A stretch of 64,000 nucleotides of DNA from Rufibacter tibetensis (lineage in GTDB: Bacteria; Bacteroidota; Bacteroidia; Cytophagales; Hymenobacteraceae), in NCBI RefSeq assembly GCF_001310085.1, contig NZ_CP012643.1, positions 1,581,001-1,645,000 on the forward strand. The letters are read 5' to 3'. The notes under the pieces were generated by a model. It did no database searches. It saw nothing but the letters and a program-made list of their open reading frames with translations, and had not been told where the DNA came from. The number at the start of each line of letters is the position of its first letter. Position 1 is the stretch's first letter. Made by a program: the position numbers and the translations under genes. Below, piece by piece: positions 23,714 through 35,570 of this stretch.

Positions 23714-25333
23714 TTATTTCAGTACCGGCAGCTTGAAATTATCCAGCGGGCTTGGCTTGCCCATGGTAGCCTCTATCTCCTTCACGGTACGCGGGGCACC
23801 AACCGAAAGGTTTTCCCAGCCTTTATCCGTAATCAGGACATCGTCTTCAATTCTTACGCCAATGCCCCACCACTTCTTATCACAGGGGCTGCCCTCCGGA
23901 ATGTAAATACCGGGCTCTACTGTAATGACCGTGTTTGGCTTAAAAGGACCATAGGTACCAGGATCATGCACATCTAAACCAAGATAGTGCGAAACACCGT
24001 GCATGGTGTAGCGGCGGGCTTCTTCCGGTTTCTGAATGATGCCCAGTTTCACCAACCCCTCTGCCATTAGTTTTTGGGCAGCAGCGTTAGGCGCCCCAAA
24101 CGCGTTTCCTACCTTACATTCCCTAAAACCAGCTTCCTGTGCGGCGTACACTAGTTCATAGATTTGCTTTTGCTCTGGTGTGAATTTTCCGTTTGCCGGA
24201 ATGGTACGGGTCACATCAGCGGTGTAGCCGTGGTATTCCGCTCCCAAGTCCATCAAGACTAAGTCGTTACCTAGGCGGGGCTTCTCATTCTCGATGTAGT
24301 GCAGAATGCAGCCATTGTTGCCCGCGCCCACAATAGACGGATAGCCTTCGTACTCTGCGCCGTATTTTTTGTAGACAAACTCATGGATTCCCTGCACCTC
24401 GGTCTCTGACATACCCGGGTGCATGGCTTTCATTACCTCCAACTGCCCGATGGCTGACATGGCAATGGCCTTACGCAGCAGTTTCAACTCTTCGGGAGAT
24501 TTCACCTCGCGCATGCCGGCTAAGATGTTTTCAAGAGTAGTCAGGTCAAACTTCTCTTTAGGCAGGCTGGCCACCACCGCGGCCCTTGCCTGAGCACCTT
24601 TCGCCGCTACATAGGCTTTCAGGAAGGAATTGCTATTGAGAGCTGGATTGGTATTCATTTGCGCCTGCACCTCCTGCTGCACCCGCTCTCCTCCCTGGGC
24701 ATCATACTGCTTAATGACTTGATATAGCTGCAGGTGCGCAAGATCCTGGCCTGACTGCAATCCTATCTTTTGCTTGAACTGCGCCACCAAATCATAGAGA
24801 TCGGCTCTGTCACCGGGGTCGTTGCGCAAGTCAGAGGGCGAGTCCAGAAATAAGATCTGCTGGAAAGCGGCAGTGTCTAGCTTGAAGTTGGCAAAGGCGG
24901 TAGCGGGCAGCGCATGCGACAACCCCAGGTGCTGCTTTACCCCTTCCTCGCCCAGACGCTTGCCGGTCCAGGACTCGCGTTGCGGATTGCGGGGTTGCGC
25001 GAAGAGCACTTCTTCAGTAGCCACGCCATTTATGACGTGTTGTTCCGAAAATAGGAGCAAAACAGCGTTCGGCTCGCGGTAGCCGGTGAGGTAATAAAAG
25101 TCTGGGTGCTGGTGGAAGTTAAAGTCCACGTCATTGGCCCGATTCCTCAAAGGATTAGAAAACAAAACGGCAACGGAGTTGGCCGGCAGCTGTTGCCGCA
25201 GGGCCTCTCTCCGTTGCCGGTGAAATTCTTTATCCAGGAAATCTGCAGGTTTGTCCGAGCCAGTATTTTGTGCGGTCACCCCTATCGGCAGCGACACAAG
25301 CAATGTTAAGCAAAGGTGTCGCAGAGCCTTCAT
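23714..25333 (-). CDS. Aminopeptidase P family protein (M24, Xaa-Pro)
   Basis: 539 aa with signal peptide (MKALRHLCLTLLVSLPIGVTAQ), so periplasmic. N-terminal creatinase-like domain with the aminopeptidase-P motif VLFSNPLRNRANDVDFNFHQ and YLTGYREPNAVLLL; C-terminal pita-bread domain with metal ligands in DLGAEYHGYTADVTR (two Asp), HGVSHYLGLDVHD (His), TVEPGIYIPEG (Glu) and GVRIEDDVLI (Glu). It removes N-terminal residues preceding proline. The gene starts 9 bp after rpmB and may be co-transcribed with it, interrupting the usual rpmB-rpmG order. Confidence 0.93.
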   Translation of the reverse strand: MKALRHLCLTLLVSLPIGVTAQNTGSDKPADFLDKEFHRQRREALRQQLPANSVAVLFSNPLRNRANDVDFNFHQHPDFYYLTGYREPNAVLLLFSEQHVINGVATEEVLFAQPRNPQRESWTGKRLGEEGVKQHLGLSHALPATAFANFKLDTAAFQQILFLDSPSDLRNDPGDRADLYDLVAQFKQKIGLQSGQDLAHLQLYQVIKQYDAQGGERVQQEVQAQMNTNPALNSNSFLKAYVAAKGAQARAAVVASLPKEKFDLTTLENILAGMREVKSPEELKLLRKAIAMSAIGQLEVMKAMHPGMSETEVQGIHEFVYKKYGAEYEGYPSIVGAGNNGCILHYIENEKPRLGNDLVLMDLGAEYHGYTADVTRTIPANGKFTPEQKQIYELVYAAQEAGFRECKVGNAFGAPNAAAQKLMAEGLVKLGIIQKPEEARRYTMHGVSHYLGLDVHDPGTYGPFKPNTVITVEPGIYIPEGSPCDKKWWGIGVRIEDDVLITDKGWENLSVGAPRTVKEIEATMGKPSPLDNFKLPVLK

Positions 25334-25342
25334 GGCAGCAGC

Positions 25343-25582
25343 TTAGTAAACGATATAACCGTCTTCTTTGGCTTTCTTTAAAACGGCAGAAATACCGTTT
25401 TTAGTAATGTTGCGCAGGGCAGACGTAGAAACTTTCAAAGTAACCCAAGCATCTTCTTCTGGGATGTAGAAACGTTTCTTCTGTAAGTTAGGGTAGAACT
25501 TACGCTTGGTTTTATTGTTGGCGTGCGAAACGCGGTTACCCACCTGCACTCTTTTACCGGTTAAATCACAAACTCGTGCCAT
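25343..25582 (-). CDS. rpmB: 50S ribosomal protein L28
   Basis: 79 aa. MARVCDLTGKRVQVGNRVSHANNKTKR is the L28 N-terminus; FYPNLQKKRFYIPEE and VSTSALRNITKNGI follow. A near-consensus GATATTTG element lies about 35 bp upstream (25617-25624). Confidence 0.97.
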   Translation of the reverse strand: MARVCDLTGKRVQVGNRVSHANNKTKRKFYPNLQKKRFYIPEEDAWVTLKVSTSALRNITKNGISAVLKKAKEDGYIVY

Positions 25583-25692
25583 TGTATCGTTAGTATCGTT
25601 TATTACAAAAGGGATGCAAATATCCGCATAAAATTATGTAATGTCAACCCTTGCCCCGCACTTTTTTCTTTAAGATGTTCTTAAAAAGTGTT

Positions 25693-25890
25693 TTACCCTG
25701 CGTCAGCGGCATTTTTGCTTCCATCAGAGGGGGAAGAATCAGCGTTTTTCCGGTACCCATAGGGACAATGTTTGCAGCCACTCTGGCAGCAGTAGCCGCG
25801 CCGGCGGTGGTACTGCTCTGTAAAAACCATGAGCCCCTGCTCGTTGAAATAGTAGTCGCCGGGCTCCAGCGGCAGCGGTTTTGGCTTCAT
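25693..25890 (-). CDS. DUF5522 family small protein
   Basis: 65 aa. Core LEPGDYYFNEQGLMVFTEQYH then RRGYCCQSGCKHCPYGY: a Cys-rich CC-x3-C-x2-C cluster likely to bind zinc or an iron-sulfur cluster (inference). Family assignment as DUF5522 from memory; function unknown. Start 25890 is preferred over 25908 because TACCTTTG (25895-25902) lies between them and would give a leaderless mRNA starting at or near this ATG. Confidence 0.75.
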   Translation of the reverse strand: MKPKPLPLEPGDYYFNEQGLMVFTEQYHRRRGYCCQSGCKHCPYGYRKNADSSPSDGSKNAADAG

Positions 25891-25894
25891 GGGG

Positions 25895-25902
25895 CAAAGG
25901 TA
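25895..25902 (-). promoter_or_regulatory. -7 promoter element TACCTTTG directly before the DUF5522 gene
   Basis: Four bases (CCCC) separate the element from the ATG, the same geometry as at mnmD. Confidence 0.5.
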
Positions 25903-26069
25903 CGCCATGCAGCGTTGCCGTAAAAGTGACTTTTCTATTCACCTAAATCCCTATTGATTCAGAATCATATCTCTAAACCAAGAAAAGCTTAATTGAGCAA
26001 TCTGACAAAATACTTTTCTTAACTATTCAGCAGAGCTTTAAATGGTTACTTACTCTATAAGTAATTTTG

Positions 26070-27110
26070 TTAATTGAGCACTTCATAAATCACAGAGGAA
26101 ACAGCCTTATTTTTAAATGAGACCTCTCCCACTTTCTGGCAGTTAAAAGATTGCTTGATTTTCTCGTAGCAACTTTCATTTACGACGATTTGGCCGGGCA
26201 AGGCTACACTTTGCAAGCGTTGGGCAGTGTTCACCACATCCCCAATGATGGTATAATCAAGCCGCCGAAGCGTCTCTGAGCCTATATTGCCGGAAATAAC
26301 TTCACCGCTATTGATCCCAATGGAGACTTTGGGTAGAAAATTTCCATGCTCGCCTTGGGCAGGCATATCGTCTATTTGCTTGCGCACCCCCAAGCAAGCT
26401 TCTACCGCCCTATCTAAGTGGAACTCTCCCTTGAAAACTGCCATGATAGCATCACCAATAAACTTGTCTATATAGCCTCCTTGGGCAATAATCTCTTTCA
26501 CCATTTCATCAAAATAAGTATTCAACAAGTGCACTACTACATTGGCGGGTTCATTTTCGCTGATAGAGGTGAAACTGCAAATATCAATGAACGCCACACT
26601 TACCTCTAAAGTCTCATTGGTCAGCAGGGAGGTTTCAAACTCGCGAGTGCTCATGAAGTTAAGAACGTTTTCGTCTACATACATGCGCAGGATGCTGTTT
26701 TCCTTTACAGCTTGCAAGGTTTTTTTGATTTGATTTACATGCTTCAGGGTTTTCTCAATGGTGAGTTCTAGGTCCTGAAAATTCACAGGCTTGCAGACGA
26801 AGTCAAACGCCCCGCGGTTCATGGCCGTTCGGATGTTCTCCATATCACCATAGGCCGACACCATCACTGCCTTGACCAATGGGTTAGATTCTGCCATTTT
26901 GCTCAACAAACTTAAGCCGTCCATCTCGGGCATGTTAATATCACTCAGCAAAATGGAGATATCGGGGTGTTGCTCTAGTTTCGCCAGGGCCTCTGTTCCG
27001 TTCAGCGCAAAAACGAATTCGTATTTCTGCTCCCTAATTTGTTTTCTGAATTTTTGCTTAATGAGCATCTCCAAGTCTACTTCATCATCGGCTACCAATA
27101 TTTTAGTCAT
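26070..27110 (-). CDS. Response regulator with class III adenylate/guanylate cyclase output domain
   Basis: 346 aa: receiver domain (residues 1-125; acidic pair D8/D9, phospho-acceptor D57 in LSDINMPEMDG, conserved Lys in CKPVN), a coiled linker (130-160), then a class III cyclase domain (165-346). Catalytic parts: metal Asp in FIDICSFTS, Lys plus second metal Asp in DKFIGDAIMAVF, and transition-state Asn/Arg in TIIGDVVNTAQRL. The purine-selecting pair reads Lys/Thr, as in the cyanobacterial adenylate cyclase CyaC, so cAMP is the likelier product. Start overlaps the upstream receiver gene by 8 bp, indicating coupled translation. Phosphorylation by the neighbouring kinases is inference. Confidence 0.92.
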   Translation of the reverse strand: MTKILVADDEVDLEMLIKQKFRKQIREQKYEFVFALNGTEALAKLEQHPDISILLSDINMPEMDGLSLLSKMAESNPLVKAVMVSAYGDMENIRTAMNRGAFDFVCKPVNFQDLELTIEKTLKHVNQIKKTLQAVKENSILRMYVDENVLNFMSTREFETSLLTNETLEVSVAFIDICSFTSISENEPANVVVHLLNTYFDEMVKEIIAQGGYIDKFIGDAIMAVFKGEFHLDRAVEACLGVRKQIDDMPAQGEHGNFLPKVSIGINSGEVISGNIGSETLRRLDYTIIGDVVNTAQRLQSVALPGQIVVNESCYEKIKQSFNCQKVGEVSFKNKAVSSVIYEVLN

Positions 27111-27483
27111 GGAGTTGCAAGTTTAGTTTGTCTTTAAGAAGAGCAAAATCTAAGGGCTTGGTCAAAAAGTCGTTTGCCCCTAAGGTCATGGCCTGGTTGT
27201 AGTTTTCCTCATCACCGTATGCCGTCACCATCATGACAACAGGCGGCGGAGAATCGTATTTCTGCTTGATGTGCTGCAACAGGTCCAGACCGCTCATGCC
27301 TGGCATGTTTATATCGGAGAGAATGAGCACGGCCTCATGGTGGTGTTCGCGCATGTAAGCCAAAGCCTCCTCACCGGAATTGGCAAAGGCGAACCGCATC
27401 TGCTTTTCCCGTATCTCCTTGCGGAAGCGCTGCTCAAAAAGAAGCTGCATGTCCTGTTCATCATCCACTACTAGTATGTTCAT
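27103..27483 (-). CDS. Stand-alone receiver-domain response regulator
   Basis: 126-aa CheY-like protein with no output domain. Acidic pair D7/D8, phospho-acceptor D57 (LSDINMPGM), Thr in MVTAYGD, and Lys in TKPLD. It resembles the receiver of the following cyclase protein in its unusual FRKEIREKQ helix, so the two receivers are probably duplicates. It could serve as a phosphate sink or shuttle between the kinases encoded upstream and the cyclase. Overlaps the next gene by 8 bp and follows the kinase gene by 35 bp. Confidence 0.92.
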   Translation of the reverse strand: MNILVVDDEQDMQLLFEQRFRKEIREKQMRFAFANSGEEALAYMREHHHEAVLILSDINMPGMSGLDLLQHIKQKYDSPPPVVMMVTAYGDEENYNQAMTLGANDFLTKPLDFALLKDKLNLQLHD

Positions 27484-27518
27484 GCGCCTGGTCTTTCTCT
27501 AGTCTAAGGTTATATTCG

Positions 27519-28850
27519 TTACGCGGGCAGTAAAATATCAAACTCGGCGTACTCTCCTTCTTTTGTGTGGGCCTTCATGGAGCCGCCGTGCCCTTTTGTG
27601 ACAATGTCATAGCTCATGGAAAGGCCCAGCCCCGTGCCCTCACCGGTGGGTTTGGTAGTGAAGAAAGGCTGGTAGATTTTAGCCAGCACTTCTTCAGGTA
27701 TGCCCATGCCATTGTCTTTCACTTTTATTTCTATGCCGCACTCTGTTTTCCTGGTGGCCACATAAAGGATAGGCTTAAATGCGGTGCCCAATACTCTTCT
27801 TTTCTCCACCACTGAGTAGAAGGCGTTGTTGAACAAATTGAGCAGCACGCGGCCCATCTCCTGCGGCAACATTTCTACTTTACCCACTGCCTCGTCAAAA
27901 TCGGTTTCCATAGTGGCATTGAAGCTTTTATCCTTGGCACGCAACCCATGGTAGCTGAGCCGTAGGTATTCATCTACCATGGCGTTCAGGTTGACAAACT
28001 CCTTCTCTCCACTGGGCTGCCGGGCGTGTTGCAGCATGTTTTTCACAATGCTGTCTGCCCGCTGGCCATGATGCACGACCTTGCCCATGTTCTGGTGTAT
28101 ATCCTCTACTAAGATAAGGGCTTCCGCAGCATTGCCTCCTATTATTTCTTCTTTTAATTCAAGTAATAGTTCAGAGTTGACTTCAGAGAAGTTATTGACG
28201 AAGTTGAGCGGGTTCTGAATCTCGTGCGCAATACCGGCGGTGAGCTCGCCCAGGGAAGCCAATTTTTCTGCCTGAATGAGTTGGGTCTGGGTGTTTTTCA
28301 GTTGTTCCAGTGAAGCCCGCAACTCTTCGGTTCGCTGAGCCACCTTTTCCTCCAATTCCTGGTTTCTAGCTTTTAGTGCATCAATGGGCCAGGATTCTCC
28401 TTCTGCCTGTTCAGAAGAAGGGAAAGACAAATGGAAATGAATTGCCTTCCAACTTTGCCCTTTGCGTTGATAAGCCGCCGTGAGCCGCACATGCATGTGC
28501 ACCCGTTCCTCTTCTGCCAAAGCAAAGCTTAATTCTGTGACCCCGTCCAGCAACGCCACCTCCCCAACGATTCTGATGTTCAGGTTTTCATAATGATACG
28601 CCAAATCTAGGGGTAACTGCGCCTTGGAGCGGGCGATCAGCCGCACATACTCCTCTACCGAGGAAAGGACCTCGTCTTTACCAGTGCCGTAAGCCGTTAT
28701 ATCTTCCGCCCCACATCTCCGGATCACTTCTTCAAAATTATCCGGCGCCAGCAAGGTGGCTTCCGTCAAAGCTAGGTGAACTTCTAGCAAATCAGCCTCC
28801 AGCACTGGGTCTGACGGATGATGCAGCAAGGTGATCTTTGTGTTCTCCAT
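27519..28850 (-). CDS. Sensor histidine kinase with N-terminal NTF2/SnoaL-like domain
   Basis: 443 aa, no membrane segment, so cytoplasmic. N-terminal region (about residues 10-140) reads as a SnoaL/NTF2-like cone fold (LLEVHLALTEATL, ITAYGTGKDEV, LAAAYQ-like pattern), then a coiled coil (150-190) and the kinase core: phospho-acceptor His209 in LGELTAGIAHEIQNPLNF, N-box LLNLFNNAFYSV, D-box KDNGMGIP and G-box GEGTGLGLS. The kinase core is nearly the same as that of the propeller kinase upstream. A SnoaL-like sensor is unusual; the ligand is unknown. Two palindromic repeats lie between the two kinase genes. Confidence 0.88.
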   Translation of the reverse strand: MENTKITLLHHPSDPVLEADLLEVHLALTEATLLAPDNFEEVIRRCGAEDITAYGTGKDEVLSSVEEYVRLIARSKAQLPLDLAYHYENLNIRIVGEVALLDGVTELSFALAEEERVHMHVRLTAAYQRKGQSWKAIHFHLSFPSSEQAEGESWPIDALKARNQELEEKVAQRTEELRASLEQLKNTQTQLIQAEKLASLGELTAGIAHEIQNPLNFVNNFSEVNSELLLELKEEIIGGNAAEALILVEDIHQNMGKVVHHGQRADSIVKNMLQHARQPSGEKEFVNLNAMVDEYLRLSYHGLRAKDKSFNATMETDFDEAVGKVEMLPQEMGRVLLNLFNNAFYSVVEKRRVLGTAFKPILYVATRKTECGIEIKVKDNGMGIPEEVLAKIYQPFFTTKPTGEGTGLGLSMSYDIVTKGHGGSMKAHTKEGEYAEFDILLPA

Positions 28851-28891
28851 AATTTACTCTTAAGGCTTCGCAAATCCTGAATCTTGATAAC

Positions 28892-28931
28892 CTGTTTTGA
28901 AGCCGTTTTTCGGAAATCAGCCTTGAAACAG
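28892..28931. repeat. Short palindromic repeat
   Basis: CTGTTTTGAAGCCGTTTTTC with GAAATCAGCCTTGAAACAG: a complete copy with both halves. Confidence 0.6.
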
Positions 28932-28962
28932 CTATTACTTGTGTAAAGAATTCTGCCTATAT

Positions 28963-29018
28963 AATTTTTGGTGTTTTAGGGCTGTTTAGCCGAGATCTGC
29001 CCTAAAACACCAAGAATT
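28963..29018 (-). repeat. Long palindromic repeat / terminator after the propeller kinase gene
   Basis: 20-bp stem with one mismatch (28963-28982 with 28999-29018) around a 16-nt loop; includes GTGTTTTAGGGC and its exact complement. On the minus strand it follows the propeller-kinase stop by 50 bp and ends in AAAAATTATA, so it may limit readthrough into the second kinase gene. Confidence 0.75.
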
Positions 29019-29067
29019 ACACGCAACTAGTCATTTTAATCTTGCCGAGTTGAATCTTAAGGCTTAC

Positions 29068-32000
29068 TCAGACAAGCGCATGCGTCATTTGGGTGACCTC
29101 CACTTTTTGGAATGGAAGCGTAACGGAGAATGTAGTGTACGCCCCTTCCTGGCTGTCAATTTTCAGACCGCCCCCGTGCCCTTTGACAATGATATCATAG
29201 CTAAGCGACAAGCCCAGACCTGTTCCCTCACCGGTAGGTTTGGTGGTAAAGAAGGGCTGCAGTATCTTGTTCTGGATGCCTACCGGAATACCGATGCCGT
29301 TGTCACTTACTTCAATCAGCACACCGTGCTCTGTTATTTTCGTTTTAACGCTCACCTGCGGATGAAACCCAGAACCTTCTGCTTTCTTCTTTTGCTGCAC
29401 AGCATAAAATGCGTTGTTGAAAAGGTTAAGGAATACCCTACCCAGGTCTTGCGCCACTACCTCTATCTTAGGAAGAGTACCATCAAAATCGGTGACCAAC
29501 TCAGCATTGAAGCTTTTATCCCTTGCCCGCAACCCATGGTAGCTGAGGCGCAGGTATTCGTCTACCAATGCATTAAGGTCTGTGGGAGCTTTCTGCCCGC
29601 TATTGTTCTGCGAGTGTTGGAGCATGCCTTTCACAATGCTGTCGGCACGTTTACCGTGGTGGCTTATTTTCTGCAGGTTTTCCTTTACGCCTGAAGCAAT
29701 AACCAGAGCCTCCTCGGTTTCGCCGCGCTGCAGTTCTTCCTGCATCTCCTCTAGTAGTTCCACACTTACCTCAGAGAAGTTGTTCACGAAGTTGAGCGGG
29801 TTCTGGATCTCATGCGCAATACCGGCGGTGAGTTCGCCTAGAGAAGCCATTTTTTCTGATTGGATGAGTTGGTTTTGGGTGACTTTCAGTTCTTCCAGGG
29901 AGGTTTGCAACTGCGCCGTTCTGTGCGTGACTTTTTCCTCCAGCACCTTATTTTCTCTAAGTAGGGCTTTAGACCGAACCCTGATATATCCCCACACCAC
30001 TGCCGCAAAGACCAAGACGTACAAGACGTACGCCCACCAGGTTTGCCACCAGGGTGACCGGATAACCACGGTAGCCGTGGCCGCTTTTTCGTTCCATACC
30101 CCATCACTGTTTGCCGCTTTCACGAAGAAGGTATAAGTGCCGGGCGAAAGGTTGGTGTAGGTAACCGTGCGCTGGTTCCCACCGTCCAGCCAGTGCTGGT
30201 CATATCCCTCCAGTTTATATTGATAGCGGTTTAGGGCCGGGTTGGTGTAATGGATACCGGTAAACTGGAACGTGACCCGGTTCTCATCATGTTTCAATCT
30301 CACTTCCTCTGTCCCCGGCCACAGGACACTCGTTTCCTCCTTACTGTCCTGTCCGGTTTTCAAGTAGCTTATTCCCTCGATTACTATTTGGGGCAGCGTA
30401 GCGTTGGAAACCAGTTGGTCCGGGTTAAAACGCAGGATTCCATCACCCGTACCCACCAACCAGTCTCCGTTGGGGGCGGTACTATTACCGCCTACAGCCA
30501 TATTTGTTGAGGGTAGCCCATTCTGGGAAGAGAGGGTAGTGACGGCAAAACTTTTAGGGTTGAAAATGGAGTACCCCCTGCCGCCGCCCAGCCAAAGGTT
30601 ACCGGCAGCGTCTTCCCTGATAGAATAAACTTGATCATATAATAACCCTTCCTTCTCCGTGAACCTTCTCAGAATCCCTTTCTCTCTGTCCACCAGAAAC
30701 AGGCCTCCAACATACGTTCCGGCCCAGAGCCTCCCTGCCCGGTCTTCATAGATACTCGTGACGGATTCAAACCCTTTTTCGTTGTTATGGAAGGAGGTAA
30801 ACTCCCCTGTTTTCTGATCCAGCTTGTTCAAGCCTCCGTTATTGGTACCCACCCACAGCGTTCCGCTCCGGTCTTCCAGCAATTTACTTACTTGGTCATC
30901 GTCTAACTCCCCGTTTTCAGGGATTGTGGTACCGGAATTGATAATGAAAGGGAAGCGCTCAAATTTGCCTGTTTTTTGGTCTAACCGGCATAGACCTCCT
31001 CCAAAAGTACCAACCCATAATCTGCCCTTGCTATCTTCAAAGACATTGACTACATGGTTGTGACTTAAAGAAGAGGAATCACCTTTGATATTCTGGTAGT
31101 TGATGACCTGCTTTGAAATAGGGTTATACCGGAACAACCCGTGTTGTCTGCTGCCTATCCAGGCAATGCCATCCTTGTCGATAGAAATCCTTGAAGGTAT
31201 AACCGGAGGGCCGTCCTGCCCGGGAAGCGCTACAGCCGTAAACTTCTTCAACGCTTGATCGCTTTCATACAGCCCCAGCGGGGTACAGACCAGGTAGCCC
31301 CCCGTCTTCAGGAGGGCGATGCTGGTGGCTGTTCTCCCCGGGTATCCCGTTTTGTCGCCGGTATGGTGAATGTACTCGAATTGAGACTGTACTTCGTTAA
31401 GCCTGTACACCCCAAAGCTTCTGATGCTCACCCATACTCCGCCGTTTCGGTCAATCAGGCTACCCCACAAGGCATTGGAGGGCAGTCCGTCGGGTAAAGA
31501 AAGGTCGGCGGTGTAGCGGTGCAACCTGCCCGCCGTTGAGGGCAGGTGCAACAGCCCTTTGCCCGACAAGATCCATAAGGCCCCGTTGCGCCCCTCCTTT
31601 ATATCAAAACAACTATCCGCCTTTGGCTCCAGGTTCTTATCGTTAACGGCGTAGGAGGCGAAGGTATTGGTGGCTCTGTCAAACCGGGAGATCCCCTTGT
31701 TAGTGCCTACCCAGAGCCTATGGCCGCTGTCCTCAAAGATGGTCTGCACACTCCCAGGGCCTTTAGATAATTCTTCGTTCTTGTAAAAAGTGGCCTTGTT
31801 GTTCTCCGTGTTGAACCGGACCAGAGCATTGCCCGCTTTGGTCTTCTGCGCCAGCCAGAGCACCCCTGGCTGGGAGGGTGCCTCATAGATTTTTAGTATT
31901 CCATTCTTCCTCGCCGTGTCCTGGCTGACCAGATACCCGGTAAACTTCTCCTGCTTTGCGTTGAATCTGTAAAGGCCGTTGTCTGTCCCCAACCAGACCT

Positions 32001-32580
32001 GCCCTTTTGAATCCTGAAAGAGGTCATTATAAGTGCCGGTGGGGAGGTTAAACTTTCCTTCTGAGAGCGAGTCATAGGTGGTAAAACTACCCGTTTTAAG
32101 GTTGATGCGGTCAACATGCCACTTTTTATCCCCATCTACATTTTTAGTCCAGAGATTGCCTTTTACATCTGTCAAAACAACCATTGTAATCTCATTCACC
32201 AGAGGCTTTCCTTCTTTAGAAGTATGGGGGAAATGGGTAAAGTCGTCAGTGTTACGGTTGTATCTGTATAAACCATTTGTTCTTGTTCCCACCCAAATGA
32301 CTCCTGCACTGTCTTCTTTTACAGTAGAGATAGACCTGTAGCTCTGCTCCTTTTTACCGGCGGTCTCCAGGTTGTACACCTTTACCTTATACCCATCATA
32401 GCGCACCAGCCCATTCTGGGTGCCAAACCACAGATAGCCGTATTTGTCTTGTAGAGAGCAATAGGCCCAATTTTCCGGCATCCCGTTTTCCACGGATAGC
32501 TTGGTGAAATTGAGTTCTCTAATTTGGCCTTTGGAGGCAAAGGCAGTAAGGAAGAATAAGAGAAGTAAAAGGTTTTTCAT
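29068..32580 (-). CDS. Two-component propeller sensor histidine kinase (HTCS-like, without regulator half)
   Basis: 1170 aa. Signal peptide (first 18 residues); about a dozen Reg_prop repeats with WVGT-NGL-RF motifs forming two periplasmic beta-propellers (residues 20-700); Y_Y_Y domain (about 715-800, ending SPGTYTFFVKAANSDGVW); one membrane helix (WWAYVLYVLVFAAVVWGYIRV, about 810-830); coiled coil; kinase core with His923 in LTAGIAHEIQNPLNF, LNLFNNAFYAV, SDNGIGIP and GEGTGLGLS. Classical hybrid two-component systems continue into receiver and AraC domains; this protein stops after the kinase, and receivers are encoded separately downstream. The ligand is probably an extracellular glycan or other polymer by analogy only. 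Confidence 0.93.
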   Translation of the reverse strand: MKNLLLLLFFLTAFASKGQIRELNFTKLSVENGMPENWAYCSLQDKYGYLWFGTQNGLVRYDGYKVKVYNLETAGKKEQSYRSISTVKEDSAGVIWVGTRTNGLYRYNRNTDDFTHFPHTSKEGKPLVNEITMVVLTDVKGNLWTKNVDGDKKWHVDRINLKTGSFTTYDSLSEGKFNLPTGTYNDLFQDSKGQVWLGTDNGLYRFNAKQEKFTGYLVSQDTARKNGILKIYEAPSQPGVLWLAQKTKAGNALVRFNTENNKATFYKNEELSKGPGSVQTIFEDSGHRLWVGTNKGISRFDRATNTFASYAVNDKNLEPKADSCFDIKEGRNGALWILSGKGLLHLPSTAGRLHRYTADLSLPDGLPSNALWGSLIDRNGGVWVSIRSFGVYRLNEVQSQFEYIHHTGDKTGYPGRTATSIALLKTGGYLVCTPLGLYESDQALKKFTAVALPGQDGPPVIPSRISIDKDGIAWIGSRQHGLFRYNPISKQVINYQNIKGDSSSLSHNHVVNVFEDSKGRLWVGTFGGGLCRLDQKTGKFERFPFIINSGTTIPENGELDDDQVSKLLEDRSGTLWVGTNNGGLNKLDQKTGEFTSFHNNEKGFESVTSIYEDRAGRLWAGTYVGGLFLVDREKGILRRFTEKEGLLYDQVYSIREDAAGNLWLGGGRGYSIFNPKSFAVTTLSSQNGLPSTNMAVGGNSTAPNGDWLVGTGDGILRFNPDQLVSNATLPQIVIEGISYLKTGQDSKEETSVLWPGTEEVRLKHDENRVTFQFTGIHYTNPALNRYQYKLEGYDQHWLDGGNQRTVTYTNLSPGTYTFFVKAANSDGVWNEKAATATVVIRSPWWQTWWAYVLYVLVFAAVVWGYIRVRSKALLRENKVLEEKVTHRTAQLQTSLEELKVTQNQLIQSEKMASLGELTAGIAHEIQNPLNFVNNFSEVSVELLEEMQEELQRGETEEALVIASGVKENLQKISHHGKRADSIVKGMLQHSQNNSGQKAPTDLNALVDEYLRLSYHGLRARDKSFNAELVTDFDGTLPKIEVVAQDLGRVFLNLFNNAFYAVQQKKKAEGSGFHPQVSVKTKITEHGVLIEVSDNGIGIPVGIQNKILQPFFTTKPTGEGTGLGLSLSYDIIVKGHGGGLKIDSQEGAYTTFSVTLPFQKVEVTQMTHALV

Positions 32581-32790
32581 ATCATGCGTTTAGAAGGCAC
32601 TTAGCTAATTTTCAATTCTGGCAACGATGCGCGACACCTTACTCCCACTCAATTTCTTCAGTACTACTCTCTAAAGATGTTTAGTCAAATCCTTCATCTG
32701 GACCCGCTGAATTCCAGTAAAGGAATGCTGTACAAGTATCTCTTCGATTGCACCGGCAGGGTTTCCATTTTGGAAAGCACCTTTTTAAGC

Positions 32791-32841
32791 AAATGTTGAG
32801 CGCACTAGCAAAAAGTATTTGAGGCATGAACCTCAACATTT
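32791..32841 (-). promoter_or_regulatory. Possible alternative-pairing leader hairpins
   Basis: AAATGTTGAG (32791-32800) is fully complementary to CTCAACATTT (32832-32841), and the same right segment can instead pair with TTGAGG (32819-32824) through CCTCAA (32831-32836). The two pairings exclude each other. Position is 210-260 bp upstream of the kinase operon start. Confidence 0.3.
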
Positions 32842-33307
32842 ATAGGGGGAGGGTAATAAAGATTGAATATCAGAAGTCAGAACCACCTGTATCTCAAGAT
32901 GAAGCTTTCAATCACGAGCTAAGGACAATCTTCTAAAAAACGTAAGCTACAGGTGAGAATTTACTGCTATTGCCAAGCGATTGCTTCTCTCTTGTACAGA
33001 GTTTAGCTAGCTTGTTTGAAAGAAGTTAGCCTTTTCTATCTCACTAACAACCATCCGTTTGCAAGACAAATTATGAGAGACACTAAAGAAACGGACTAGA
33101 CAAACAGGGCCTTTTTCTACCAAGTAAATCCTTCTTTCTATAAAGGAAAGGTAATGATATATGTATAAATATTAGTAGTTTAAATTGACTAATTTATAAA
33201 GATTCTACAAAAGTAAGTTATACATGCTACCTAAGATGCCTGAAGAGCACTCCACCTTTGTTTCCCTTGCTTTGTTTGAACTCTTATATCACTCCCTATA
33301 CAAACAA

Positions 33308-33346
33308 GTCCCTCTCTACTTACCAAGATGGTAAGTAGAGAGAGAC
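33308..33346 (-). terminator. Terminator of the SIMPL gene
   Basis: 17-bp stem with one mismatch (33308-33324 with 33330-33346), loop AAGAT, followed on the minus strand by TTGTTTGT; 95 bp past the SIMPL stop. Confidence 0.75.
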
Positions 33347-33440
33347 TGAGATTATTTGACTATATTCTTCTAAAATCTAGGATGTCTGGATTTGTCTAGA
33401 AGTTACAAGCTGACTTTGGGAGTTTACCTCTACTTGATTT

Positions 33441-34172
33441 TCAATCCACCGCGTACTCCACGCGCACGGTGATGGTGGCGGTTTTGTCTTTGTCTGAGGT
33501 GTTGAAGACGCCACCGTAGCTGTAGCTTTCGTTGCTGTTCTGGCCTACAATCTGGAAAACGCCCATGGTGGCTTTCCGGAGGCTTCCCAAGTCACCTCCG
33601 CTGTTTTCAGCGATGGCTTTGGCGCGCAGGCGTGCGTCTTCTGAGGCTTTGGCCAGTAGATTGTGCTTGAGGCCTTTCAGTTTGGTGTAGTAATACTGGG
33701 GCGGCGTGGAATTGAATTCCACCCCTTGTTCAATCAGTTCGGTTACTTCCCTGGACAGTCGCTCTACCCGGCCAATGTCCGTTGATTCTACTTTTACCTG
33801 CTGCGTGAGGTTGTACCCACCGAAATCCTGCCCCGTCTGCCGTCCCTCCAGATCGAACTTTGGCTGGTATTCTTTCATGATTTCCACCGAGGAAATCACC
33901 ACGCTGCTATCCTGTATCCCTTTCAATCTGAGGTAGCGCCGCACCAGGCTTTCATATTGCTTCAGGGCAGCATAAGCACTTCTCAGGTCCATGGATCTGC
34001 GGGAGTAAAAACCTGTCCAGACCACCTGGTTGCTGATGAAATCCACCTCGGCGGAGCCTGTCACACTGATAGACTCTGTAGCTTTGAATTTGTACTTGTA
34101 GGCACTTCCTACAATAAAGGCTGCTGCCACCAGGGCCACCGCAATGATGAGGTAAGCGGAAATCTGTTTCAT
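33441..34172 (-). CDS. SIMPL domain-containing protein (DUF541)
   Basis: 243-aa protein with an N-terminal membrane anchor (ISAYLIIAVALVAAAFIVGSAY). The SIMPL signature follows: ESISVTGSAEVDFISNQVVWTG, then alternating strand-helix repeats, SSVEIMKEYQP, and the C-terminal ASEDARLRAKAIAENSGGDLGSL, a typical family helix. The domain forms periplasmic oligomers in characterised relatives; the role here is unknown. The upstream in-frame start (34238) adds 22 charged residues before the anchor, so the ATG at 34172 is preferred. Divergent from rocD. Confidence 0.88.
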   Translation of the reverse strand: MKQISAYLIIAVALVAAAFIVGSAYKYKFKATESISVTGSAEVDFISNQVVWTGFYSRRSMDLRSAYAALKQYESLVRRYLRLKGIQDSSVVISSVEIMKEYQPKFDLEGRQTGQDFGGYNLTQQVKVESTDIGRVERLSREVTELIEQGVEFNSTPPQYYYTKLKGLKHNLLAKASEDARLRAKAIAENSGGDLGSLRKATMGVFQIVGQNSNESYSYGGVFNTSDKDKTATITVRVEYAVD

Positions 34173-34322
34173 ATCTTGATTATCACCTAGCTGTATCTCT
34201 CTAAATTCATGCCGCCATTGGGAGTAAAGACTTTTCATTACTTTTATCTCTGCAAGCGGTTCATCCGTATTTACCAGTAGGTGAAAGCAATTTGCTTACT
34301 TCGTTCTAATTTACAAAAACTG

Positions 34323-35570
34323 ATGACTATGAATACTTCCACCAGCACCTCCAGCCAAGAGGCCATAGCCTTAGAAGACAAATACGGAGCCCACAACTAC
34401 CACCCACTGCCGGTAGTCCTGAACCGCGGCGAAGGAGTCTTTCTCTGGGATGTGGAAGGCAAGCGATATTATGACTTCCTCTCGGCGTATAGCGCTGTAA
34501 ACCAAGGCCACTGCCATCCCCGCATTATTGGGGCGCTCACAGAGCAGGCCCAGCAGCTTACCCTTACCTCCCGGGCCTTCTACAACGACAAACTTGGCCC
34601 CACTGAGAAGTACATGGCTGAGCTCTTTGGCTATGACAAAGCCTTGCTCATGAACTCTGGTGCCGAAGCCGTGGAAACAGCCCTGAAACTTGCCCGCAAG
34701 TGGGGATATAAAGAAAAAGGCATTCCGCCGCACGAGGCTGAGATTCTAGTAGTTGAGCATAATTTTCATGGTCGTACCACCGGCATCATCTCCTTCTCAA
34801 CTGACCCAAGTAGCACCGCAGGTTTCGGTCCTTACATGCCAGGCTATAAAGTTCTGCCGTATGACAACCTGGAAGCACTGGAGCAAGCCCTACAAGAAAG
34901 TGCCCACATCTGCGCGTTCATGGTGGAGCCTATCCAGGGCGAGGCTGGTGTAGTAGTTCCATCAGACGGATACCTAAGCGGCGCCAAAGCCCTGTGCGAA
35001 AAATACAATGTGTTGCTCATCATTGACGAGATACAGACGGGCGTTGGCCGCACCGGCAAGCTGCTGGCCTCACATTATGACGGCGTCAAACCCGATATTT
35101 TAATTTTGGGCAAAGCCCTTTCTGGCGGAGTTTTACCAGTTTCTGCGGCGCTCGCCGATGACCATATCATGCTCTGCATTCAGCCAGGTGAACATGGCTC
35201 TACCTTTGGCGGTAACCCGCTGGCCTGCGCCGTAGCAGTAGCTGCTTTGGAGGTGATTCAGGATGAAAACCTGACGGAGAATGCCATGCGCTTGGGCGAG
35301 ATCTTCCGATCCAGAATGAATGAGCTGAAAGCCCGTCACCCGGAGCTGGTGAGCCTGGTACGTGGACGGGGCCTTTTGAATGCAGTGATCATCCAACCAA
35401 CGCCAGACGGCCGCACCGCTTGGGATGTTTGCGTGAAATTGATGGAAAACGGCCTCTTAGCCAAACCCACCCACGGCGACATCATCCGGTTTGCCCCACC
35501 ATTGGTAATCACCGAAGAGCAACTGCACGCCTGCTGCGATATAATTGAGAAGACGCTGGAGGAGTTTTAA
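34323..35570 (+). CDS. rocD: Ornithine--oxo-acid aminotransferase
   Basis: 415 aa (413 if the ATG at 34329 is used). Class III PLP aminotransferase converting ornithine and 2-oxoglutarate to glutamate semialdehyde and glutamate. Motifs: [21 protein letters not shown] at the N-terminus (ornithine aminotransferase hallmark), [33 protein letters not shown], and PLP-binding Lys264 in [17 protein letters not shown]-terminal [20 protein letters not shown] is also typical. An upstream in-frame ATG (34281) is judged too far from the family start. Links arginine/ornithine breakdown to proline and glutamate. Confidence 0.95.

Follow-up and report, generated by a model that had tools for sequence, protein, structure and literature searches.

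A transferable Bacteroidota cassette in which exchangeable sensor kinases probably control a class III adenylyl cyclase through a receiver pair

A four-gene block of Rufibacter tibetensis (family Hymenobacteraceae), located in a 64,000-nucleotide stretch of its genome (positions 1,581,001 to 1,645,000 of contig NZ_CP012643.1; hereafter, the window), belongs to a cassette that is widespread in Bacteroidota and consists of same-strand histidine kinases, a lone receiver, and a receiver fused to a class III cyclase. We consider it likely that this is a transferable unit in which exchangeable sensor kinases feed one receiver pair controlling a class III adenylyl cyclase. The computed evidence comprises gene order, domain content, intact residues, conservation, co-segregation, and insertion as a unit. 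In the window, the block has the following layout:

29068-32580, minus strand: kinase 1, 1170 amino acids (aa); signal-peptide-like start (judged by eye), Reg_prop propeller and Y_Y_Y (to about residue 840), a single hydrophobic segment after Y_Y_Y, then HisKA and HATPase_c
28962-29019: inverted repeat in the spacer between kinase 1 and kinase 2; 21-nucleotide (nt) arms, 95% complementary, 16 nt between them
27519-28850, minus strand: kinase 2, 443 aa; SnoaL_3/NTF2-like sensor (Pfam match 46-144), HisKA and HATPase_c
27103-27483, minus strand: lone receiver, 126 aa; single Response_reg (Pfam)
26070-27110, minus strand: receiver-cyclase, 346 aa; Response_reg, helical linker, class III catalytic domain (Guanylate_cyc, Pfam)

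Gene calls are the longest open reading frames (ORFs), and transmembrane (TM) counts derive from simple hydropathy; an MFS label supported by a single sub-threshold hit was discarded. The ORF list and Pfam bear out the four genes and their domains as the initial annotation had them, and the domain content agrees with its proposal that a cyclic nucleotide, and not an AraC regulator, is the output. As for the links of 8 to 35 base pairs (bp) that it gave for the last three genes, 35 bp do separate kinase 2 from the lone receiver, but the 8 is an overlap of eight bases between the lone receiver and the cyclase and not a gap; the two kinases lie 217 bp apart.

The arrangement is not a product of chance because the module recurs in more than 100 relatives. 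Neighbourhoods were counted in 159 distinct loci with long flanks, 87 from Hymenobacteraceae and 72 from other families, after exclusion of 12 duplicate loci (195 reduced to 183) and the short-flank loci L211-L240. The lone receiver lies directly upstream of the cyclase in 145 of the 159, the two ORFs overlapping in 104 of these 145, 73 times by 4 or 1 bases; at least one same-strand kinase is present in 134 loci, a kinase together with the lone receiver in 128, and two to five kinases in 65, with 33 runs extending to the edge of the fetched stretch. Searches with tblastn recovered five further lone receivers missed by the ORF calls (L063, L076, L080, L087, L095) and left six loci where this gene is seemingly absent (L061, L111, L159, L165, L177, L193); L143 and L191 are cut by a contig end, and L195 is fragmented. 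Co-conservation of the four genes was a check set beforehand, and the exact set is indeed found in a genus-mate, G037 (locus L043), along with the wide recurrence of the module; furthermore, in L134, a Chitinophagaceae metagenome-assembled genome (MAG), a propeller kinase precedes a 443-aa SnoaL kinase with 10 bp between them, an order like that of the window. Among named genomes, at least 572 relatives were matched, and the best 80 are all Bacteroidota by name; of 395 genomes sampled across the phylum, 77 give a match at E<=1e-50, 30 over the full length and 47 in the receiver only; receiver-only matches (about 390 aa) are excluded from the cyclase counts. Outside these lineages, receivers like that of the cassette also occur fused to about 260 further residues, and the one such protein scanned (L127, 2298-3467) is a receiver-SpoIIE phosphatase, which might be another output for receivers of this type.

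Across these loci, the kinase core is nearly constant whereas the sensors vary (TPR, 7TMR-DISM, propeller, SnoaL). The set of kinase N-termini numbered 128, weak and giant ones excluded; subtraction of 18 propeller and 4 cut or fragmentary ones leaves the 106 non-propeller N-termini of named loci covered by the sensor scan, among which TPR_12 (34), 7TMR-DISM_7TM (12), SnoaL_3 (6), and HAMP (4) were recognized, the propeller being carried by the 18 further kinases. On a tree of 201 of the 286 kinase cores, the propeller label changes at least 20 times among 26 rows, 7 of these changes being forced by starred branches, compared to a shuffled mean of 24.8, with a value as low obtained in 1 of 500 shuffles. 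Given the many changes of this label, sensors appear to have been exchanged often, with some clustering.

Kinase core and cyclase also segregate together. In a family sample of 150 genomes, 81 match the receiver-cyclase, or 80 once the receiver-only G136 is set aside; cores at E<=1e-125 are present in 79 of these 80 (the exception is G107) and in none of the 70 genomes that lack the cyclase, and at E<=1e-70, in all 80 and in 13 of the 70. Within the genus (n=16 genomes), 7 genomes possess both and 9 neither, and the genome of R. tibetensis itself encodes 5 kinases with this core, 4 of them inside its two cassettes.

At the site of the window, the block forms a compact insertion:

about 25906-33439: insertion of 7.5 kb with the four genes; the flanks on its two sides are colinear
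23714-25333: flanking gene, presumably Xaa-Pro peptidase-like
33441-34238: flanking gene, which we take to be SIMPL-like

The two flanking genes adjoin in genus-mates G057 and G032, and in five others (L267-L271), the flanks are colinear but both the block and the SIMPL-like gene are missing; altogether, of the eight genus-mates examined (of 15), seven lack the four-gene block at this site, G037 being the sole carrier. No other non-overlapping ORF of at least 100 aa lies within the insertion, the remaining ones overlapping the kinases on the opposite strand. By eye, we recognized no signs of mobile elements at the edges of the insertion, and no transposase search was made; a 19-nt inverted repeat with 3 nt between its arms is located at 33307-33347, near the upstream edge. 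In a quick cyclase tree (173 rows, SH-aLRT, a branch-support test, being the only support), the window cyclase and its close relative from G037 (88%) group with six rows (support 90, not starred), four of them from Chitinophagaceae and two from MAGs named to phylum level only, whereas 82 other cyclase rows of the family lie beyond a starred branch (98); these include the second cassette of the same genome (L041), which comes with other sensors. We read this pattern as horizontal transfer of the four genes as a working unit.

The key residues of both receivers are intact: D7, D8, the phospho-acceptor D57, T87, and K109 in the lone receiver and D8, D9, D57, and K107 in that of the cyclase, the two being 48% identical (59/123 aligned). 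D57 of the cyclase receiver is kept in 193 of the 195 rows of the receiver-cyclase alignment (12 duplicates, 183 distinct), the remaining 2 being gaps, and the phospho-site Asp of the lone receiver in 174 of 174 rows. The lone receiver, kept in at least 145 of the 159 loci, might itself be the actual output, acting like CheY on a target of its own, and the cyclase secondary or inactive; we find this very unlikely, given that the metal-binding and Asn/Arg residues of the cyclase are invariant and that cyclases persist in the six loci without a lone receiver. In class III adenylyl cyclases, an Asp pair binds the metals and a Lys/Asp pair selects adenine, accompanied by an Asn/Arg pair. The corresponding residues of the window cyclase are D176 and D220, K216 and D285, and N294 and R298. 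D176, D220, N294, and R298 do not vary in any of the 195 rows, position 216, four residues before the second metal ligand, is Lys in 191, and position 285 is Asp in 190. The cyclase of L193 has Asn at position 285, and in the deep relatives L237-L240, Glu/Lys replace the adenine-type Lys/Asp pair.

In PDB, the cyclase sequence is matched best by the adenylyl cyclases OaPAC and CyaB; the same catalytic residues align in OaPAC, and this match spans the linker (query 124-344). A model of the whole cyclase (predicted local distance difference test, pLDDT, 82.5; predicted template modelling score, pTM, 0.58) matches the structures of CyaB, OaPAC, and CyaC, and guanylyl cyclases are matched as well. 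From the adenine-type residues and the OaPAC alignment, the product is predicted to be cyclic AMP (cAMP) and not cyclic GMP (cGMP), so that, of the two outputs initially offered as alternatives, K216 and D285 favor the former.

Another conceivable function is Pycsar-type defense, where the cyclase would make cyclic CMP or cyclic UMP and a PycTM-like membrane effector would kill the cell. The PADLOC models of PycC match the window cyclase (71.8 bits), the gene directly after the cyclase encodes a PycTM protein in 8 of 80 named loci, and in 3 family loci, PycTM lies convergent beside it, once as an HD-PycTM protein. However, a receptor cyclase of the same genome matches the PycC models too, albeit with a lower score, so that a match is not specific by itself, and a PycTM-domain protein is encoded in 150 of 150 family genomes, cassette or not, so that its presence is uninformative as a phyletic test. 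At the window, L041, and L043, no PycTM was found adjoining the cyclase (PycTIR was outside the search). The prevalence of the adenine pair likewise disfavors membership in Pycsar. The published PycC residues, Y50/D94/R97 for BcPycC and F100/R142/Q144 for EaPycC (PMC11224242), differ from those of the window cyclase; judged by spacing from the metals, a comparison made for EaPycC, the window cyclase has F174/K216/I218 in place of the EaPycC trio. Altogether, we regard a Pycsar-type role as highly improbable.

The two kinases combine closely related cores with distinct sensors. Kinase 1 ends 12 residues past its HATPase_c match, and no receiver or helix-turn-helix (HTH) domain was found in it with Pfam; because the chain stops directly after the ATPase domain, kinase 1 does not qualify as a hybrid two-component protein. 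In kinase 2, the HisKA match scores 26.1 bits, slightly below the Pfam cut-off of 26.9, and no hydrophobic segment or predicted TM was found by hydropathy; the model of its sensor (pLDDT 79.1, pTM 0.76) is matched best in PDB by NTF2-like proteins and CaMKII hub domains. The expectation of two inputs is thus borne out by an extracytoplasmic propeller sensor on the one hand and a SnoaL kinase without predicted TM on the other. The window cores are 62% identical as proteins and 70-73% as DNA over three blocks, their His and ATP-site motifs are intact, and the segment HE-QNPLNF--NF at the phosphorylated His has ten residues that are identical in 18 of 18 aligned cores. On the kinase tree, both cores and a third kinase make up one small group (support 92, not starred) with long branches. 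The initial impression of duplicates therefore stands insofar as the cores are closely related, but with such identity and branch lengths, the duplication would be an old one at best; a recent tandem duplication is unsupported, considering also the third kinase in the group and the unstarred support. As to a phosphorelay, no histidine phosphotransfer (HPt) domain was found with Pfam in the four proteins, to which this search was confined. Different sensors on the same core, facing the same receivers, could also serve to oppose each other, one kinase acting mainly as a phosphatase and the block comparing two signals instead of summing them. HisKA-type kinases are often bifunctional; nevertheless, the sequence is neutral, with intact His and ATP-site motifs in both kinases, and we hold this arrangement to be unlikely, if well worth keeping in view.

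The 217-bp spacer between the kinases, which the one close relative has as well, contains a strong hairpin (z -5.0). No T tract was found 3' of it, and we rejected a T-tailed terminator at this place for that reason. The hairpin has short partial matches at other genome sites, mostly weak; an Rfam search of 25000-35000 gave no match at gathering scores, and promoter and terminator scans stayed near the shuffled level (10 versus 9.1 and 12 versus 10.4, respectively). Compared with the 35 bp and the overlap downstream, such a spacer might indicate that the receiver/cyclase operon includes kinase 2 alone and that the propeller kinase forms a transcription unit of its own, serving other receivers, and a propeller kinase is counted in just 21 of 159 loci. 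Yet the insertion holds both kinases, each has a core of the co-segregating subfamily, and in several relatives (for instance L135, L140, L142, L163, L171, and L175), a propeller kinase directly precedes the receiver. A separate kinase 1 accordingly seems quite unlikely to us.

The mechanism that we infer, including phosphotransfer, the sign of regulation, the cAMP product, the role of the lone receiver, and the effectors, would start from the extracytoplasmic propeller kinase 1 and the cytoplasmic SnoaL/NTF2 kinase 2 as the inputs in the window. Because the regions around the phosphorylated His are nearly identical, both kinases should phosphorylate the lone receiver as well as that of the cyclase. 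Once phosphorylated, the cyclase receiver would most likely rearrange the dimer via the linker helices, switching cAMP synthesis, and the lone receiver would most likely be a competing acceptor or a dimer partner that tunes this switch. The targets of cAMP would be cyclic-nucleotide-binding proteins whose genes lie elsewhere in the genome, and the candidate phosphodiesterase is an HD-domain protein.

The neighbours of the cyclase in relatives offer candidates for this output, which vary between families. In 62 of the 87 Hymenobacteraceae loci, the next gene encodes a multi-TM protein about 900 aa long; 54 of these loci show a C-terminal cyclic-nucleotide-binding domain, and the remaining 8 are covered only as far as the end of the protein, any separate gene farther on lying outside the fetched stretch. 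Among the 72 loci from other families, the next gene encodes HD-YitT (10), PycTM (8), YitT (7), HD (5), or, once, the multi-TM protein, and none of these families in 41. At least one such family occurs within eight genes upstream or three downstream of the cyclase in 114 of the 159 loci (72 of 87 in Hymenobacteraceae and 42 of 72 in the others). The genome of R. tibetensis encodes nine matches to cyclic-nucleotide-binding domains and three to PycTM; other cAMP readers in it are possible. We can advance only tentatively, at rather less than even confidence, the broader proposal that the cassette provides the input side of a phylum-wide undescribed system, in which interchangeable kinases pass many signals to one receiver pair, cAMP sums the signals, membrane proteins (multi-TM HEAT proteins with cyclic-nucleotide-binding domains, PycTM, YitT) provide the readout, and a dedicated HD phosphodiesterase is included; if this is true, Pycsar-type effectors would have a non-defense relative in everyday signaling.

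Several loci contain related proteins. In L263 (5318-13429; the same genome, at 3.08 Mb), an HD protein, which would degrade cAMP, is found with a cyclic-nucleotide-binding protein (E 3.4e-17) that overlaps a multi-TM HEAT protein, and nearby, a propeller/Y_Y_Y receptor is fused directly to a class III cyclase. L250 (616-3100), also from this genome, encodes an HD-PycTM fusion convergent with a protein that we take to be DUF2652-like, perhaps with a cyclase-fold domain. In L136 (10420-11874), an HD domain is fused to YitT membrane and DUF2179 domains, a kind of protein that follows the cyclase in 10 named loci; in two Algoriphagus loci, a DUF6090 protein lies directly 3' of the cyclase (L203, 10436-11170). 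The second contig of G000 encodes a further class III cyclase domain (C2:161986-162534), within an open frame of 1744 aa.

Several observations weigh against the interpretation of the block as a cassette for phosphorylation-controlled cAMP synthesis. No same-strand kinase is present in 25 of the 159 loci, 4 of these runs stopping at the edge of the stretch; weaker members of the core family occur in the 13 cyclase-less genomes mentioned above; and same-core kinases exist outside cassettes, 17 in G095 and the orphan L042 in R. tibetensis. The counts are not independent, because the genomes are related, and Fisher p values for the co-segregation exaggerate the strength of the association accordingly. 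The hairpin-containing spacer is compatible with kinase 1 being transcribed apart. The PycC models match other cassette cyclases at 80.5 and 83.9 bits and a deep relative at 91.0 bits, whereas the receptor cyclase of the same genome scores lower than cassette cyclases (55.3 bits). Finally, no candidate effector was found near the window copy, L043, or L041.

The closest known counterpart is CyaC of Spirulina and Anabaena, where a histidine kinase, a receiver, and a class III adenylyl cyclase follow one another as well, and the catalytic domain of which is matched by the cyclase model. In CyaC, which is reportedly activated by phosphotransfer, kinase and cyclase form one polypeptide, in contrast to the separate ORFs, several exchangeable kinases, and lone receiver of the window unit. 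CyaC is controlled by AphC (PMC4284465). A receiver with a phospho-acceptor Asp fused to a cyclase with its catalytic residues, the features of a two-component-controlled class III adenylyl cyclase, is present in the block; to judge from its sequence, the block would be a variant of the CyaC-like, phospho-controlled cyclases. Bacteroidetes hybrid two-component systems share the Reg_prop propeller, Y_Y_Y, HisKA, and HATPase_c with kinase 1; they have a fused receiver and an AraC HTH, which are missing from kinase 1, and the cyclase provides the output in trans. The receiver-GGDEF diguanylate cyclases (PleD, WspR, DgcR) resemble the receiver-cyclase fusion, with Foldseek matches including 3bre, 6zxb, 3i5a, and PleD, but the catalytic domain in the window is a class III adenylyl cyclase. 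Pycsar shares the class III-fold cyclase and, in some relatives, the PycTM neighbours, and is distinguished from the window unit by the adenine-type residues, the phospho-receiver control, and the lack of an effector beside the cyclase in the latter. OaPAC, the best PDB sequence match of the cyclase with the linker included, has a BLUF light domain as its sensor, in place of which the window cyclase has a receiver. The initial statement that no described pathway has this order agrees with our searches of one open literature library, in which we found no description of the cassette; papers of subscription journals were mostly outside the scope of these searches, and absence is not thereby proved.

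To our knowledge, many Bacteroidota kinases have no known output. In an early census, four Bacteroidetes genomes were said to encode no adenylate cyclases (PMC1183210). The strong genomic evidence reported here ties one kinase subfamily to one output and makes a cAMP circuit in Bacteroidota testable. The cassette is, furthermore, a natural system in which to study the sharing of a single receiver pair among several sensors. Judging from the recurrent neighbours, membrane proteins may read cAMP, and the PycTM family may be linked to ordinary signaling.

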